Positions 3,422 through 51,398 of a stretch of DNA of 64,000 nucleotides are shown here, in pieces. The notes beneath the pieces are model-generated. The model saw only the letters and a list, made by a program, of their open reading frames with translations, searched no databases and was not told where the DNA came from. The DNA comes from Pelagibius sp. CAU 1746 (GTDB taxonomy: Bacteria > Pseudomonadota > Alphaproteobacteria > Kiloniellales > Kiloniellaceae). The translations under genes and the position numbers were made by a program. The stretch is taken from positions 2,480,001-2,544,000 of the forward strand of contig NZ_JBDOQT010000001.1 of assembly GCF_039839785.1 (NCBI RefSeq), read 5' to 3'. Each line of letters starts with the position of its first letter. Position 1 is the first letter of the stretch.

Positions 3422-4726
3422 CTAGGAGGATGGTGCTCCGTTGTGGATGGCGATGTCGAAGGCGGCCAATGCTCGGTCAATTGGGATAAAGAAGTTGATT
3501 CCCTGGGAGACAACTCCCCCAATCATGATTCCTGAGACTGCGATGCCGACAACATTGCCCTGCTCATCGAGAAGCGGCCCCCCAGAGTTTCCCGGATTGA
3601 CATCTGCGTCGCTTTGAACATAGTCCAGGCCGCCCTCGATGCGGTAGGCGCTAACAATTCCCTGCCGTAGGCTACCGCTAAAATCCTCGCTGAGCGGTGC
3701 CCCATAGGAATACACGTTAGCCCCAACGTTCAGGCGCTCCGTACGCAGGGAAAGAGGCCTGCGGGTCGCGCTAACAAGTTCAATTAGCGCGACGTCCCGA
3801 TAGTTGTTGCGGCTGACTACCTGTCCTTCAACTTCTGAGCCGTCGCCAAAGATGATGCGTACTTCTTTAGCGCCGCCAACAACATGCTGGTTAGTCAGCA
3901 TGAACCGGGGAGTGATCATGAAGCCCGTTCCATGGCCGGTCGCGGATCTGACAACTCCTACGCTCTGGCTCAAGTGATTCGCATCGAAGCCCGTACCGGA
4001 ATCAAGTGCCAGGCTCGCGAGCGTGAGCGAGCTTTTGCTGACCTCTGCGACAACGGGCGCTTCGACTTCGCCATGCCTGACGAGGGAATGGAACTTGCTC
4101 TGGGCCAAGAGGTTCCGCACTGAGATCGCAAAAGCTTCGTCCATCGTGATGGAGTCGCCGTTGGTTGTAGCCTCCTCCGTTTCCGCGGACCCTTCCGTAG
4201 GGATCTTCATGACGACCTCGCGGCGAAGGGTATCGTAAATCTGCCATTCAATGTTCATGTAGATCGAGGCGCTGGCAGTACTGAAGTTGCCATAGCCGGC
4301 CTGTGGAAAGCAGATGTTGGTTTCGATTTCTTTGATCGGCCCGGCAATGAAATAGTTGGCGCGGTTGATCTCCGGGTCGCCGAACAGTTCGTCGGGATCT
4401 CCAACGACTTCGTAGTTTGCGCTTTCAAGCTCCTCGCGGAAGATGTCGTTGAAGCGCTCTACGTCGAGAGAGTAGCGTCCGCTGCGAGGCATGTAGTCGT
4501 CGTGCTTGATGCACGCCAAGCCTGCACCGACGCTGCCAATGGGGGCGTTCCGCGGTACTCTGAGAACGATCTTCTTGAATGCGATCGGTTTGGGCTCTTC
4601 AAAAGTCGGCACTGCAATTGGCTGCAGCAATTCCGCTTTCTTGCTCGTCGTTGCTACGCATCCAGATACGAACGAAGCTACGATGACAATCACAGCAGCT
4701 TCCTTGAGCCCCCTCATTCCTCCCAT
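3422..4726 (-). CDS. trypsin-like serine protease lipoprotein
   Basis: A 434-aa lipoprotein with a C-terminal S1C (DegP/HtrA-like) protease domain. The lipobox is VSGC (residues 20-23 from the chosen start). Residues of about 30-225 form an N-terminal region I do not recognise. The protease part shows GTGFMI, TNQHVV (catalytic His), DVALIEL (Asp) and GNSGGPLLD (Ser), so the triad is complete. There is no PDZ domain after it, unlike DegP. I chose ATG 4726 because AGGAGA lies just upstream of it; an upstream start at 4759 lacks such a site. The gene uses many A/T-ending codons and its surroundings are AT-rich, unlike all neighbours, which suggests recent acquisition. The substrate is unknown. 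Confidence 0.85.
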   Translation of the reverse strand: MGGMRGLKEAAVIVIVASFVSGCVATTSKKAELLQPIAVPTFEEPKPIAFKKIVLRVPRNAPIGSVGAGLACIKHDDYMPRSGRYSLDVERFNDIFREELESANYEVVGDPDELFGDPEINRANYFIAGPIKEIETNICFPQAGYGNFSTASASIYMNIEWQIYDTLRREVVMKIPTEGSAETEEATTNGDSITMDEAFAISVRNLLAQSKFHSLVRHGEVEAPVVAEVSKSSLTLASLALDSGTGFDANHLSQSVGVVRSATGHGTGFMITPRFMLTNQHVVGGAKEVRIIFGDGSEVEGQVVSRNNYRDVALIELVSATRRPLSLRTERLNVGANVYSYGAPLSEDFSGSLRQGIVSAYRIEGGLDYVQSDADVNPGNSGGPLLDEQGNVVGIAVSGIMIGGVVSQGINFFIPIDRALAAFDIAIHNGAPSS

Positions 4727-4762
4727 TGACCATCTCCTAGATTTCCGAAATAAATTCAACCT

Positions 4763-4791
4763 GAGATATGGTTATATGTTAATGTAATCAA
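4763..4791 (-). promoter_or_regulatory. possible promoter of the protease lipoprotein gene
   Basis: On the minus strand a TTGATT -35 (4786-4791) and TATCTC -10 (4763-4768) are separated by 17 bp in an AT-rich patch that stands out from the GC-rich surroundings. It lies about 40 bp upstream of the chosen start codon. This is pattern matching only. Confidence 0.35.
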
Positions 4792-5038
4792 TCTGAAATG
4801 GTGTTTGGCTGTGGCCGTTGGCTTGTTCGATACTGATCGTGGAGGCGGAACAGCGACCAGCCCAAACGGCTGATATCAGGCTCAGGCAACGCCCGCCGAC
4901 GCCATGGCCCTGGGGCGGGGTTTTGATCTAGAATGGCGCTGCATGGCGTCTGAACGGCGGCCCTGAAGGGTTGCGCCGCGCGCTTTGTCCCGGGCCCCGA
5001 CAAGAGGGCCGGTGAAGGGGAGGAGATGCGAGGAAGCG

Positions 5039-6232
5039 GTGCCCGTCACCTATGATCCCGCCATCATTGCCCTGTCGGTGGTGATCGCCGTCCAGGGCGG
5101 CTACGTCAGCCTGATGCTGGCGCGGCGGCTGGCCAGCCTCGGGCTGGGGCCGGACGGCTGGGCCACGGCCGGGCGACGCAAGGCGCTGCTTGCGGCCTCG
5201 GCCCTGGCGCTGGGCATCGGCATCTGGGCCATGCACTTCATCGGCATGTTGGCGGTGAAGCTGCCGGTGGCGGTGACCTACGACCTGCTGTGGACCCTGG
5301 TTTCGGCCCTGGTTTGCATCCTGGTGGTCGGCCTCGGCGTTTTCGTCGCCTCCTTCGGGCGCCTGACCCCCAAGCGCCTGGCCGGGGCCGGGCTGCTGAT
5401 GGGCGCTGGCATCGCCATGATGCACTACGTCGGCATGTCGGCCCTGCGCGCCAACTGCATCGTCAGCTATTCGCCGGCCCTGGTGGCGGCCAGCTTCGCG
5501 GTGGCTGTCGCGGCCTCCGGCCTCGCCCTCTGGCTGGCTTTCTCGCCGACCCACAAGCCGCACCTCATGGCCGGCGCCGCCTGCATGGGCCTCGCCATCT
5601 CCGGCATGCACTACACCGGTATGGCGGCGGCCGCCTTTCTGCCTGCCGAGGATCTGGTGGCGATCTCGGCACCGGTCCTGAGCCTCGATCTCCTGGCCAT
5701 CGTGGTGGCGGTCACGGCCTTCGTCATCTGCGGGCTGTTCCTGCTGGTGCTGCTGCCCGATGGGCTGGACCGGAGGACCGGCCTGGCGGAGGCTGGGCTG
5801 GCGGAAGATGGGACGGCGAAGGAAGAGACGGCCGATCCGGAGCCGGCGCGCGCCGCCACGGAGGAGAACAGGCCGTCGGAGGCGCCCGAGCCTGCTCCGC
5901 CGCCGGCGCGCATCCCGGTGAACGGCAACGGTGCCACCCGCCTGCTGACCCCGCAGGAGATCTACGCGGTTCATGCGGACGCGCACTATACCTACGTCTT
6001 CGACGGCCAGGAGACGCATTTCTGCAATCTCTCGATCTCCGAGATCGAAGCCCGCCTCGATCCGCAGACGTTCCTGCGCGTCCACCGCAGCCACATCGTC
6101 AACGTGTCCCACGCCGGGGCCCTGAGGCGGGTGCGCGACCAGGGTCTGCTGGAACTGGACTCGGCCAAGCGCCACCAAGTGCCGGTGAGCCGTAGCCGCC
6201 TGCCCAAGCTGAGAGCCGCCCTGGGACTCTAG
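5039..6232 (+). CDS. coxC: MHYT-LytTR membrane regulator, CoxC/CoxH-like
   Basis: A 397-aa regulator. The N-terminal MHYT domain (about residues 1-220) has seven predicted helices and three signature pairs: MHFIGM, MHYVGM and MHYTGM. MHYT domains are proposed to sense O2, CO or NO through a metal. A Pro/Ala/Glu-rich linker (about 245-290) leads to a C-terminal LytTR DNA-binding domain (about 298-397; EIYAVHADAHYTYVF, FLRVHRSHIVN, PVSRSRLPKL). Oligotropha CoxC and CoxH share this layout and lie in the cox cluster; here it directly precedes coxM, hence the name. The start is GTG 5039 because the MHYT domain begins 3 residues later and a purine-rich GGGGAGGAG precedes it. In-frame codons upstream encode only Arg-rich sequence. 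It probably controls the cox genes via the repeats at 6291-6344. Confidence 0.82.
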   Translation: MPVTYDPAIIALSVVIAVQGGYVSLMLARRLASLGLGPDGWATAGRRKALLAASALALGIGIWAMHFIGMLAVKLPVAVTYDLLWTLVSALVCILVVGLGVFVASFGRLTPKRLAGAGLLMGAGIAMMHYVGMSALRANCIVSYSPALVAASFAVAVAASGLALWLAFSPTHKPHLMAGAACMGLAISGMHYTGMAAAAFLPAEDLVAISAPVLSLDLLAIVVAVTAFVICGLFLLVLLPDGLDRRTGLAEAGLAEDGTAKEETADPEPARAATEENRPSEAPEPAPPPARIPVNGNGATRLLTPQEIYAVHADAHYTYVFDGQETHFCNLSISEIEARLDPQTFLRVHRSHIVNVSHAGALRRVRDQGLLELDSAKRHQVPVSRSRLPKLRAALGL

Positions 6233-6290
6233 GCCTAATCTCCCCGGGGCGGCGAATTTCGGAAGAAAACCCGAGGATTTCAGCGGGAAT

Positions 6291-6344
6291 CGCCGTTCGT
6301 GCAGTTTGAGCCGCCATTCGTGCGGAGAGCGCCGGTTTCGTGCA
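6291..6344 (+). promoter_or_regulatory. three direct repeats, probable LytTR operator of coxM
   Basis: TTCGTGC occurs three times in direct orientation at 6296-6302, 6317-6323 and 6337-6343, that is every 20-21 bp. The first two lie in a longer match, CGCC(G/A)TTCGTGC(A/G)G. Each copy therefore falls on the same helix face. LytTR regulators bind direct repeats about two helical turns apart, so this suits the MHYT-LytTR gene upstream. A TTGACC -35 starts at 6352, just after the third repeat, with no good -10 at the usual distance, as expected of an activator-dependent promoter. The rest of 6233-6487 holds nothing else I recognise. Confidence 0.6.
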
Positions 6345-6487
6345 GCGGACGTTGACCGCTTTTCACGCCCTGTGGCCCGATCTTTTCCAATGAAGATGTC
6401 CCCGCCGCGACTGCTGGCGGCGGATCGAAAACGAGCGGTGCCGGTGACGAGAAGGCCGCCGCAACTGGGAAAGGGAGGAGCCGACCC

Positions 6488-7354
6488 GTGATTCCGGGAT
6501 CTTTCAGCTATCACAGCCCCGCGACGGTCGAGGAGGCCGTGGGCCTGCTTGCCGAACTGGGGGACGACGCCCGTCCGCTGGCGGGCGGCCACAGCCTGTT
6601 GCCGATGATGAAGCTGCGCCTGGCGCCGCTGGAGCATCTGGTGGACCTGCGCAAGATCGACGCCCTGAAAGGCATCGAGGAGGCGGACGGGGCCCTGGTC
6701 ATCGGTGCCATGACCACACAGGCCGATTTGCTGGCCTCCGGCCTCGTCGCCGGGCACTGCCCGATCATCCAGGAAACAGCGGCCCTCATCGCCGACCCGC
6801 AGGTGCGCTACGTCGGCACCTTGGGCGGCAACGTGGCCAACGGCGACCCGGCCAACGACATGCCGGGCGTCATGCAATGCCTGGACGCCAGCTACCTGCT
6901 GACAGGCAAGGGCGGCAGCCGCGAGGTCAAGGCGCGCGACTTCTACGAAGGCGCCTTCTTCACCGCCCTGCAGGAGGGCGAGATCCTGACCGCCGTGAAG
7001 GTGCCGGTCCCGCCGGCCGGCCACGGCTATGCCTACGAGAAGCTGAAGCGCAAGATCGGCGACTACGCCACCGCCGCCGCGGCGGTCGTGCTGACCATGG
7101 CCGGCGGAACCTGCAAGTCCGCCTCCATCGCGCTGACCAACGTCGGCGAGACGCCGCTCTACGCCGCCGAGGCTTCCGCCGTCCTGGTGGGCAGCAGCCT
7201 CAACAAGGCGGCGGTGGACCAGGCTGTGAGCCTGGCCGAGGGGATCACCGCGCCGGCCTCCGACGGCCGCGGGCCCGCCGAGTACCGCACCAAGATGGCG
7301 GGCGTGATGCTGCGCCGCGCCATCCAGCGCGCCCACGAACGCGCCACGGGCTGA
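6488..7354 (+). CDS. coxM: form I carbon monoxide dehydrogenase, FAD (medium) subunit
   Basis: A 288-aa flavoprotein subunit of the molybdenum-copper CO dehydrogenase (CO + H2O to CO2 + 2e- + 2H+). It takes electrons from the CoxS iron-sulfur clusters and passes them to the respiratory chain. The FAD-binding motifs are clear: [13 protein letters not shown] (about residues 36-48) and [16 protein letters not shown] (about 112-127). Length matches the Oligotropha protein. The start is GTG, placed after GGGAAAGGAGG. CoxS follows after 32 bp and coxL overlaps coxS, so M-S-L form one transcript in the standard form I order. Confidence 0.96.
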
Positions 7355-7386
7355 GCCGGCCGGGACGGAAAAAGGAAGACCGAAAA

Positions 7387-7880
<494 letters not shown>

Positions 7881-7884
<4 letters not shown>

Positions 7885-10316
7885 GTGACGCCCCCCAAAC
7901 GACCGCTGGCGAGAAGATCGAAGACCGCGAAGCCAACCTCGAGGGCATCGGCTGCTCGCGCAAGCGCACCGAGGACGTCCGCTTCATCCAGGGCAAGGGC
8001 AACTACGTCGACGACGTGAAGCTGCCGGGCATGTTGTTCGGCGACTTCGTGCGCTCGCCTTATGGTCACGCCCGCATCAAGTCCATCGATACTTCCAAGG
8101 CACTGGCGGTGCCGGGCGTGAAGGCGGTGTTGACCGCCGCCGACCTGAAGCCGCTCAGCCTGCACTACATGCCGACCCTGGCCGGCGACGTGCAGGCGGT
8201 GCTGGCCGAGGAGAAAGTGCTGTTCCAGAACCAGGAAGTCGCCTTCGTCGTCGCCGAGGACCGCTACATCGCCGCCGACGCGGCGGAACTGGTCGAGGTC
8301 GACTACGAGGAACTGCCGGTACTGGTCGATCCCTTCAAGTCCATGGAGCCCGACGCCCCCCTGCTGCGCGAGGACATCAAGGACAAGACCGAGGGCGCGC
8401 ACGGCGCGCGCAAGCACTACAACCACATCTTCACCTGGGAAGTCGGTGACGAAGAGGCAACCGACGCGGCTTTCGAAACGGCCGAAGTCACCGTCAGCGA
8501 GCTGATCAGCTATCATCGCGTGCATCCCTCGCCGATGGAAACCTGCGCCAGCATCGCCTCCATGGACAAGATCAAAGGAGAGCTCACGGTCTACGGTACG
8601 TTCCAGGCGCCCCATGTGGTGCGCACCGTGGCCGCGCTGCTCTCTGGGATCCCCGAGCACAAGATCCGCGTCATTGCGCCGGATATCGGCGGCGGCTTCG
8701 GCAACAAGGTCGGCGTCTATCCCGGCTATGTCTGCTCCATCGTCGCCTCCATCGTGCTGGGGCTGCCGGTCAAGTGGGTCGAAGACCGCATCGAGAACCT
8801 CTCCGCCACGGCCTTCGCCCGCGACTATCACATGACCGCCGAGCTGGCGGCCACCAAGGACGGCAAGATCACGGGCCTGCGCGCCCACGTGCTGGCCGAC
8901 CACGGAGCCTTCGACGCCTGCGCCGACCCGACCAAGTGGCCAGCCGGTTTCTTCAACATCTGCACCGGGTCCTACGATATCCCGACGGCGCATGTGGCGG
9001 TCGACGGGGTCTACACCAACAAGGCGCCGGGCGGCGTGGCCTACCGCTGCTCCTTCCGGGTGACGGAGGCCGCCTACATGGTCGAGCGGGCCATGGACAT
9101 CCTGGCGCATAAGCTGGACATGGACCCGGTGGAGCTGCGGTTGAAGAACTTCATCCAGCCGCAGCAGTTCCCCTATCAGTCCTGTCTTGGATGGGAGTAC
9201 GATAGCGGTGACTATCCTACGGCCATGAAAAAGGCCATGGAGAAGACGCACTACGACGCCCTGCGCGCCGAGCAGAAGGAAAGGCGCGAAGCCTTCGCCC
9301 GCGGCGAGACGCGCGAGCTGATGGGCATCGGCGTGGCTTTCTTCACCGAGATCGTCGGCGCCGGACCGACCCGCAATTGCGATATCCTGGGCGTCGGCAT
9401 GTTCGATTCCTGCGAGATCCGCATTCATCCGACCGGCGCCGCCATCGCCCGTCTGGGCACAAAGAGCCAGGGGCAGGGGCACGAAACGACCTACGCCCAG
9501 ATCCTGGCGACGGAAATAGGTATCCCTGCCGACGACATCATGATCGAGGAAGGAGATACCAACACCGCGCCTTATGGTCTGGGAACCTACGGGTCTCGCT
9601 CGACGCCGGTGGCCGGCGCCGCCGCCGCTCGGGTCGGCCGCAAGATCCGCGACAAGGCCAGGAAGATCGCCGCGCATCTACTGGAAGTGGGTGAGGACGA
9701 CCTGGAGTTCGAGGTCGACCGCTTCAGGGTCAAGGGCCTGCCGGAGAAGCAGAAGACCATGAAGGAGATTGCCTGGGCGGCTTACAACAACCTGCCGGAA
9801 GGCATGGAGCCCGGCCTGGAAGCGGTGGATTACTACGATCCGCCGAACATGACCTATCCCTTCGGTGCCTATGTCTGCGTCGTCGATATCGATGCCGACA
9901 CCGGTGTGACCAAGGTCCGCAAATTCTATGCCTTGGACGACTGCGGCACGCGGATCAATCCGATGATCATCGAGGGCCAGGTGCATGGTGGTCTGACGGA
10001 AGCCTTCGGCATCGCCATGGGCCAGGAGATCAAGTACGACGAAGCCGGCAACGTCATGGGCGCCAGTCTCATGGACTTCTTCGTGCCGACGGCGGTCGAG
10101 ACGCCGGAATGGGAGACCGATTTCACGGTTACGCCTTCGCCGCATCACCCGATCGGCGCCAAAGGTGTGGGCGAGAGCCCCAACGTGGGCGGCGTGCCGG
10201 CTTTCTCCAATGCCGTGAACGATGCCTTTGCGCACCTCGGCGTGACCCATATCCAGATGCCCCACGACCATTGGCGCACCTGGAAAGTCTGCGAGAAGCT
10301 GGGCCTGACCGGTTAG
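7881..10316 (+). CDS. coxL: form I carbon monoxide dehydrogenase, molybdenum-copper catalytic (large) subunit
   Basis: An 811-aa catalytic subunit with the Mo-Cu active site. The active-site loop reads AYRCSFR with Cys390, the ligand of copper. This motif defines form I, true CO dehydrogenase; form II proteins have AYRGAGR. The C-terminal GAKGVGESP motif holds the conserved Glu near molybdenum. Length is as in characterised CoxL. The start is the ATG overlapping the coxS stop; the frame is open further upstream but that part lies inside coxS. The protein is made in the cytoplasm and works attached to the inner face of the membrane. Confidence 0.97.
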
Positions 10317-50678: not shown

Positions 50679-51398
50679 TCAGGGGCGGTTCTCGGCGACT
50701 TCCTGGACGCCCTTGTAGATATCATTGGTCGTCAGTGAGGTCGTCTCGCTCGTGAGGCCGAGAATCTCGTTGATTTGCTCGATCTCCGACTGAGTGATTT
50801 CACTCTTTACGGAGGCCAGCGCAGAGGCCGCTGCTTGGAGGTCGTTTTTCAGGACCGCTTGGCGGTAAGCCTTGATCTTCACCACCGTGGCGCCGCCGCC
50901 GGAGCTACCAGGAGAACTGCTCCGCGTGCTGGCGGTCGACGCGCTGCTGCCCGGGGACCCAGGTCCGCCGGCGTTGCCGCTGTTGCCGCCGGCGTTGCCG
51001 CTGTTGCCGCCGGCGTTGCCGCTGTTGCCGCCGGCGTTGCCGTTGTTGCCGCCGGCGTTGCCGTTGTTGCCACCGGCGTTGCCGCTGTTGCCGCCGGCGT
51101 TGCCCCCGCCGGCGTTATCACCGCCACCGGCGTTGCCGCCGCCGCCACCGCCACCGGCGTTGCCGCCGCCGCCACCGCCACCGCCACCAGCGTTGCCGCC
51201 GCCACCGCCGGCATTGCCGCCGCCACCGCCGGCATTGCCGCCGCCGCCTCTGCCGTTGTCCTTGCCGTTGTCGCCGGGAGCGGCCGTGGCGATATCACCG
51301 CCGAGGCTGAAGCCGAGGTGCGACTCCGGACTCGAAGAGCCAAAGCCCACGAGTAAGGCCACCAAGGCGCCGGCTGTCAGATGGAAAGGGCGATTCAT
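50679..51398 (-). CDS. Gly/Asn/Ala-repeat secreted protein
   Basis: A protein of 239 aa. An N-terminal hydrophobic segment (LTAGALVALLVGFG) suggests export. Residues of about 45-140 are low-complexity: Gly runs with Asn-Ala, and then a seven-residue unit GGN(S/N)GNA. After a Ser/Pro/Thr stretch there is a helical C-terminal domain (VVKIKAYRQAVLKNDLQAAASALASVKSEITQSEIEQINEILGL). I do not recognise a family. It could be a surface or biofilm-matrix protein. The alternative frame on the other strand is a Pro/Leu repeat without a signal peptide. An in-frame TTG at 51410 has a better spaced GAGGAA, so the start is uncertain. Confidence 0.65.
   Translation of the reverse strand: MNRPFHLTAGALVALLVGFGSSSPESHLGFSLGGDIATAAPGDNGKDNGRGGGGNAGGGGGNAGGGGGNAGGGGGGGGGNAGGGGGGGNAGGGDNAGGGNAGGNSGNAGGNNGNAGGNNGNAGGNSGNAGGNSGNAGGNSGNAGGPGSPGSSASTASTRSSSPGSSGGGATVVKIKAYRQAVLKNDLQAAASALASVKSEITQSEIEQINEILGLTSETTSLTTNDIYKGVQEVAENRP
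50967..51107. repeat. 21-bp tandem repeat (minisatellite)
   Basis: About 6.7 copies of GCCGGCGTTGCCGCTGTTGCC in tandem, each coding seven residues on the minus strand. Shorter 9-15-bp GCCACCGCC-type units continue to about 51247. Copy number probably varies between strains. Confidence 0.9.

Follow-up and report, generated by a model that had tools for sequence, protein, structure and literature searches.

What is the function of three TTCGTGC heptamers that lie in direct orientation between a gene for an MHYT-LytTR regulator and the coxMSL operon of Pelagibius sp. CAU 1746, and which protein would read them? We analysed this locus within a stretch of 64,000 nucleotides (hereafter the window, whose coordinates are used unless another locus is named). 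The features that matter here are listed below.

4985..6232, + strand: gene for an MHYT-LytTR regulator (CoxC type); longest ORF, true start possibly further in
6291..6303, + strand: half-site I, CGCCG-TTCGTGC-A, heptamer at 6296-6302
6312..6324, + strand: half-site II, CGCCA-TTCGTGC-G, heptamer at 6317-6323, 21 bp after I
6337..6344, + strand: half-site III, TTCGTGCA, heptamer at 6337-6343, 20 bp after II
6352..6357, + strand: -35-like hexamer TTGACC; its start is II start +35 and III start +15
6376..6381, + strand: tentative, poor -10, CCCGAT, after an 18 bp spacer and within CTGTGGCCCGATC; proposed from a weak match
6472..6479, + strand: AGGGAGGA, presumably ribosome-binding, preceding the GTG start of coxM
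6488..7354, + strand: coxM (Pfam), CO dehydrogenase medium (flavoprotein) subunit, first gene of coxMSL
from 7387: coxS
7881..10316, + strand: coxL, CO dehydrogenase large subunit; the translation contains AYRCSFR, which we take to be the form I CO dehydrogenase motif

The array lies between the regulator gene and the operon, and the sequence-only reading had described it correctly as three heptamers at steps of 20-21 bp behind an MHYT-LytTR gene; they start at 6296, 6317 and 6337 (steps 21 and 20). Pfam recognises MHYT in the product of 4985-6232 (157.7 bits in 4 stretches) and LytTR at residues 318-413 (64.8 bits), and the protein is 43.5% identical to CoxC of Afipia carboxidovorans OM5 over 409 columns (tblastn). 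The coxM product matches FAD_binding_5 (173.5 bits) and CO_deh_flav_C (94.2 bits). The hexamer TTGACC is where that reading had placed a -35, but the gap between it and the third heptamer is 8 bases, not 9. No sigma-70-like promoter match was found in 6200-6500, in agreement with the earlier remark that a good -10 is missing. A search for an intrinsic terminator between the regulator gene and coxM found none.

Judging from sequence, we consider it highly probable that 6291-6344 is the operator of the upstream MHYT-LytTR (CoxC-type) regulator and controls the coxMSL promoter in answer to CO. The array is in all likelihood real, conserved and functional. Its direct support comes from the sequence, its conservation, its occurrence alongside the regulator and its phasing with the -35, the last seen in part of the family, and from these we infer binding, gas sensing and the direction of control at the window array.

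The triplet might instead be a chance repeat without function, or a remnant of coding sequence, and the lone heptamer is indeed only as frequent in the window as chance allows (12 occurrences versus 10.9 expected). Against this, the observed triplet matches at 21 of 21 positions, while the 400 bp before coxM, shuffled 5000 times with dinucleotides kept, gave 17 of 21 at best and never 18, and the position and spacing are kept across many genera. Since the shuffles never attain the observed score, we rejected the chance reading, to which we give a negligible probability. In the 4.66 Mb genome, TTCGTGC-N12-15-TTCGTGC occurs as the array itself (two overlapping matches) and at C1:2891935, and nowhere else. 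A profile of the array (R1; 34 rows, the window array among them) gave one match at E<=0.1 in its own genome, the array itself; for this search 94 of the 1755 first-look candidates were scored. The same code might have served autoregulation of the regulator gene, a reading we rejected because the array is the profile's sole match in the 64 kb window.

We compared coxM loci from genomes with and without an MHYT-LytTR gene. For each locus the score is that of the best TTCGTGC triplet, at steps of 19-22 bp, within 400 bp upstream of coxM; L001, L121, L122, L005 and L033 were left out because they repeat the window or one and the same contig, and the plasmid loci come from 8 of 17 plasmid matches. 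MHYT-LytTR was called absent at E cut-offs of 1e-60 (class search) and 1e-85 (order search), backed by LytTR searches; absence in the class searches is soft, because the best 5 or best 2 candidates per genome were scored. Within the order, 23 of 61 genomes carry MHYT-LytTR and 28 of 61 a CoxL relative at 70-100% identity; both occur together in 21 genomes, and seven have the CoxL without MHYT-LytTR. G011 and G030 have MHYT-LytTR without a close CoxL match, yet coxM lies beside the regulator in them (L026, L011).

In the comparison that the sequence-only reading had suggested, and as an operator of the adjacent regulator would predict, the array precedes coxM in 44 of 45 loci from genomes or plasmids with MHYT-LytTR (16-21 of 21 matches, shuffle p <=0.02 each), versus none of nine coxM loci from genomes without a detected MHYT-LytTR reaching 16 of 21. 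Among the 45, only L148 misses; it is a second cox copy in G242 (14 of 21, p 0.39). Among the nine, L124-L130 score 13-15 (p 0.07-0.84), L144 scores 12, and L145 scores 15 (p 0.01) in an A+T-rich region of a genome without any LytTR. Any LytTR protein is absent from eight of the nine genomes; G051 has one.

The regulator gene is on a different contig from coxM in G004 and G059, and about 8 kb or more away in G048 and G323. In all four the array sits before coxM, with 21 of 21 matches in G004 (L131), 19 of 21 in G048 (L134), 17 of 21 in G323 (L147) and 19 of 21 in G059 (L151), and the profile finds none beside the regulator genes on L132, L133 and L143. Judged by these placements, the array belongs to the target gene, not to the regulator gene. 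L132 (contig C264 of the congener G004) shares, at 5023-9690, the gene neighbourhood of the window, with a large sensor-kinase-like ORF, FecR-like and OmpA-like ORFs and MHYT-LytTR; the cox genes of G004, with the array before coxM, are on another contig than this neighbourhood. Genus g4 (L013-L016) has a poor array at a distance of about 360 bp upstream of coxM; the R1 profile fails to find it in two of the four loci. The Breoghania MHYT-LytTR gene (L034) has neither coxM nor an array within about 4 kb on either side.

The sites might also serve another LytTR protein, RcoM-like or the second one encoded in this genome, rather than the MHYT-LytTR neighbour. RcoM1 of Paraburkholderia xenovorans, a PAS-LytTR protein, binds three copies of TTCNNGCA with 12-13 bp spacers upstream of a cox -35 (as quoted in PMC11347149). 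Half-sites I and III of the window fit TTCNNGCA fully, II differs once (G for A), and the spacers, counted on the 8-mers, are 13 and 12 bp. In G102 (L157 1930-2807) a similar array comes directly after a PAS-LytTR (RcoM-like) gene, with a histidine kinase gene further along. The second LytTR protein of the Pelagibius genome (L149 2834-4171; C1 at about 2,087,000) has only LytTR, without PAS, in Pfam, and its gene is about 398 kb away. RcoM senses CO by haem in a soluble domain, whereas the neighbour of the array is a membrane MHYT protein of the MHYT-LytTR, not the haem PAS-LytTR, type. The missing PAS domain and the distance of the second LytTR protein, and the co-occurrence of array and MHYT-LytTR across genomes, make another LytTR protein a very improbable reader, and we retain the MHYT-LytTR neighbour.

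We built a matrix of the operator from 37 loci in 28 redundancy groups, leaving out L013-L016, L113 and L114 and excluding Afipia and Bradyrhizobium from training; anchors were chosen by likeness to TTCGTGC, and in seven loci a pseudo-site lying upstream was removed by hand. The consensus of half-sites I and II is cCGCAG-TTCGTGC-A/G (matrix consensus cCGCAGTTCGTGC); half-site III is weaker and less conserved across the family, and perfect in the window. Among 43 upstream regions, sites that match at 6 or more of 7 positions pair at a distance of 20 bp in 29 cases and of 21 bp in 13, and any other distance up to 39 bp has at most 2 pairs. CGCM-N-TTCGTGC at 20-21 bp is put forward here as a new description of the conserved operator form, predicted from sequence. 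Canonical LytTR sites consist of two direct repeats of about 9 bp, separated by 10-13 bp (PMC11347149); the array resembles them in having direct repeats two helical turns apart, and differs in its three half-sites and in the conserved CGCM extension on the left. On the window itself the pair I+II scores 39.0 versus 10.5 for the best non-overlapping pair, the window being in the training set. A low-complexity tandem of GCCGTTGTTGCCGCCGGCGTT at 51022-51110 gives a weak, false matrix match. In three congeners the half-sites, CGTTGACCG (the -35) and CTGTGGCCCGATC are invariant blocks within a diverged spacer, and GGGAAAGGGAGGA, the presumed ribosome-binding region of coxM, is invariant as well.

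In part of the family the array is phased with the -35. Ten loci, including the window, OM5 and Bradyrhizobium, have TTG at II+35, with a weight of 7.0 of 29 redundancy groups (average offset 0.6; L013-L016 left out); none of 3000 rotations that keep relatedness reached 7.0 (maximum 6.0). At II+34 there is TTG in four loci and CTG in four, and the remaining loci have no such hexamer; TTG at II+34/35 is found in only about a third of the redundancy groups. L007-L010 have the hexamer at II+34, then 17 bp, then TATCCT or TACCCT; L011 and L012 have TACGCT. A global sigma-70 promoter test gave no single best place for most loci.

We asked how specific the profile is genome-wide. Among 385 genomes of the class, 13 match R1 at E<=1e-4, and 11 of these carry full-length MHYT-LytTR; of the other two, G129 retains, at a contig edge and next to coxM, the end of a LytTR gene, and G399 has CoxL with LytTR not found. 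Most of these class-match sites belong to the training set of the profile; those of G067 and G399 do not. At E<=0.01, 12 of the 14 class genomes with full-length MHYT-LytTR match, and G010 and G223 do not. The order contributed sites that had not been used in training, those of G037 (1.0e-7), G059 (7.4e-6), G002 (1.2e-4), G017 (0.0012) and G011 (0.0025). An E value near 1e-3 is not proof, because G003 (2.2e-4) and G005 (8.1e-4) match though any LytTR is absent; of the matches in these two congeners, one precedes a BTAD-regulator gene and the other falls within a long ORF. Matches inside long ORFs in G154, G352 and G005, and one overlapping long ORFs in G134, were taken as chance. In the fragmented genome G399, where LytTR was not found, L154 has a strong array at 3850-3902 before a DUF3034 gene; likeness of this gene to coxB was considered and is not convincing.

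The sequence-only reading had taken the DNA target of such regulators to be not well described, which is out of date. CoxC of OM5, the first characterised MHYT transcription factor in a group of domains long suspected to be gas sensors, has been found to bind PcoxB at three direct repeats of TTNNNGCN; it represses PcoxB in E. coli, and CO relieves the repression and weakens binding, with copper needed (Durante-Rodriguez et al. 2024, PMC11347149). The array of the window resembles this operator in having an MHYT-LytTR regulator of a cox cluster, CO control of the cox genes being that of OM5, and in its three direct repeats on one strand that fit TTNNNGCN (TTCGTGCA, TTCGTGCG and TTCGTGCA). It differs from PcoxB in that it precedes coxM, directly follows the regulator gene and has TTCGTGC perfect. 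The PcoxB repeats as published (from primers) are TTACCGCC, TTTGGGCA and TTGCGGCA and are said to overlap the -35 (PMC11347149); they start at 1205, 1234 and 1260 of L113, 29 and 26 bp start to start. In contrast, the window repeats are about two helical turns apart (21 and 20 bp) and stop 8 bp short of TTGACC, without -35 overlap.

We scanned both strands of the 18 kb OM5 cox cluster (L113) with the matrix and found three tandems, the next non-overlapping score being 2.3.

L113 1193: tandem at PcoxB, score 28.5, the best in 18 kb; reached by 0/300 shuffles
L113 4233: tandem between coxC and coxM, score 22.4; reached by 0/300 shuffles of the 18 kb
L113 13445: tandem between coxH and coxI, score 20.2; reached by 2/300 shuffles of the 18 kb

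The best tandem is the very fragment that CoxC was shown to bind, found by a matrix trained without Afipia. In our register the PcoxB half-sites are TTCATGC at 1193, TTGGTGG at 1214 and TTTGGGC at 1234, with steps of 21 and 20 as in the window; the -35 TTGATG at 1249 is again at II+35, with TATCGT at 1273, 18 bp further, and the array does not overlap TTGATG. The matrix gives -21.7 and -9.3 at the published 1205 and 1260, versus 16.3 at 1193 and 12.2 at 1214. The published loss of binding fits our register too, because PcoxB1, on our reading of the primers, changes the G that lies four bases to the left of II, where G is found in 91-99%, and PcoxB2 changes half-site III. PcoxB3, in which an added change at 1260 took binding from very weak to none (PMC11347149), counts against it.

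Overall, it seems fairly probable that the published CoxC register is wrong, and that the true code is a CGCM-N-TTCGTGC tandem at 20-21 bp, which fixes the distance of the membrane regulator to the -35, marks OM5 coxB, coxM and coxI, and also serves PAS-LytTR regulators and other targets (the Sinorhizobium meliloti EAL gene and, in G323, a copper-chaperone gene divergent from cox, both described below). coxM and coxI are predicted, from their sequence, to be CoxC targets in OM5 and seem unstudied as such. Of the three promoters, only that of coxB was found discussed in the literature consulted; there, coxM is named only in the introduction, with no PcoxM (PMC11347149). The literature searched yielded no further CoxC papers. 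In the pHCG3 record of OM5, the coxH annotation consists of two overlapping MHYT ORFs (L113 12225-13425), so the organism's second MHYT-LytTR gene could be broken or have been misread. The start of coxM may already have been mapped in studies of OM5 cox transcription from 1995 and 1999.

How would the operator work? LytTR domains would occupy the three half-sites from one side of the helix, with the firmest contacts at I and II, and so bring the membrane-anchored regulator beside the -35 at 6352, while the MHYT domain, by homology with CoxC, would sense CO through copper. The sequence-only reading had expected an activated promoter, and its weak -10 and the position of the repeats do suit one: the regulator would be a CO-dependent activator at coxM, with III at about -50 and LytTR contacting sigma or alpha. 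It speaks for activation that the operator stops 8 bp upstream of the -35 and not on it, that the TTG at II+35 is phased beyond the relatedness-keeping rotations, that a good -10 is absent, and that RcoM1 and the majority of LytTR regulators are described as activators with sites upstream of the -35 (PMC11347149). The same source, however, has CoxC repressing PcoxB in E. coli, with CO relieving repression and weakening binding; in our register PcoxB has the repeat-to--35 distance of the window array, so the position is compatible with repression as well. Position alone cannot decide the direction, because PcoxB has the same distances in our register. We give a CO-dependent activator somewhat less than an even chance; CO-relieved repression is slightly favoured by analogy, because the nearest experiment shows repression at an equally spaced promoter.

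Arrays were also seen before genes other than coxM. On Sinorhizobium meliloti pSymA (L115 5237-5303) a perfect TTCGTGC triplet with steps of 21 and 19, reached by 0/500 shuffles, follows an MHYT-LytTR gene and precedes an EAL gene (5401-6015); no coxM was found around this regulator gene in the stretch examined. It is possible, from this arrangement, that L115 encodes a gas-to-c-di-GMP circuit. In G323 a second array (L147 4080-4119), divergent from the coxM array, lies before a gene (4189-4884) for PpoB2 (Pfam), a copper chaperone; CoxC and CO dehydrogenase both need copper.

This kind of operator has been known since 2024; what is added here is the family-wide code, the prediction for coxM and coxI of OM5, and the re-reading of PcoxB. 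A reliable operator code would make the CoxC regulon predictable from sequence. It points to coxMSL as a direct CoxC target in OM5, allows the published PcoxB mutants to be read anew, and turns the question of repressor or activator into a test at a single promoter. It also suggests that, outside CO oxidisers, MHYT-LytTR regulators may control c-di-GMP enzymes.
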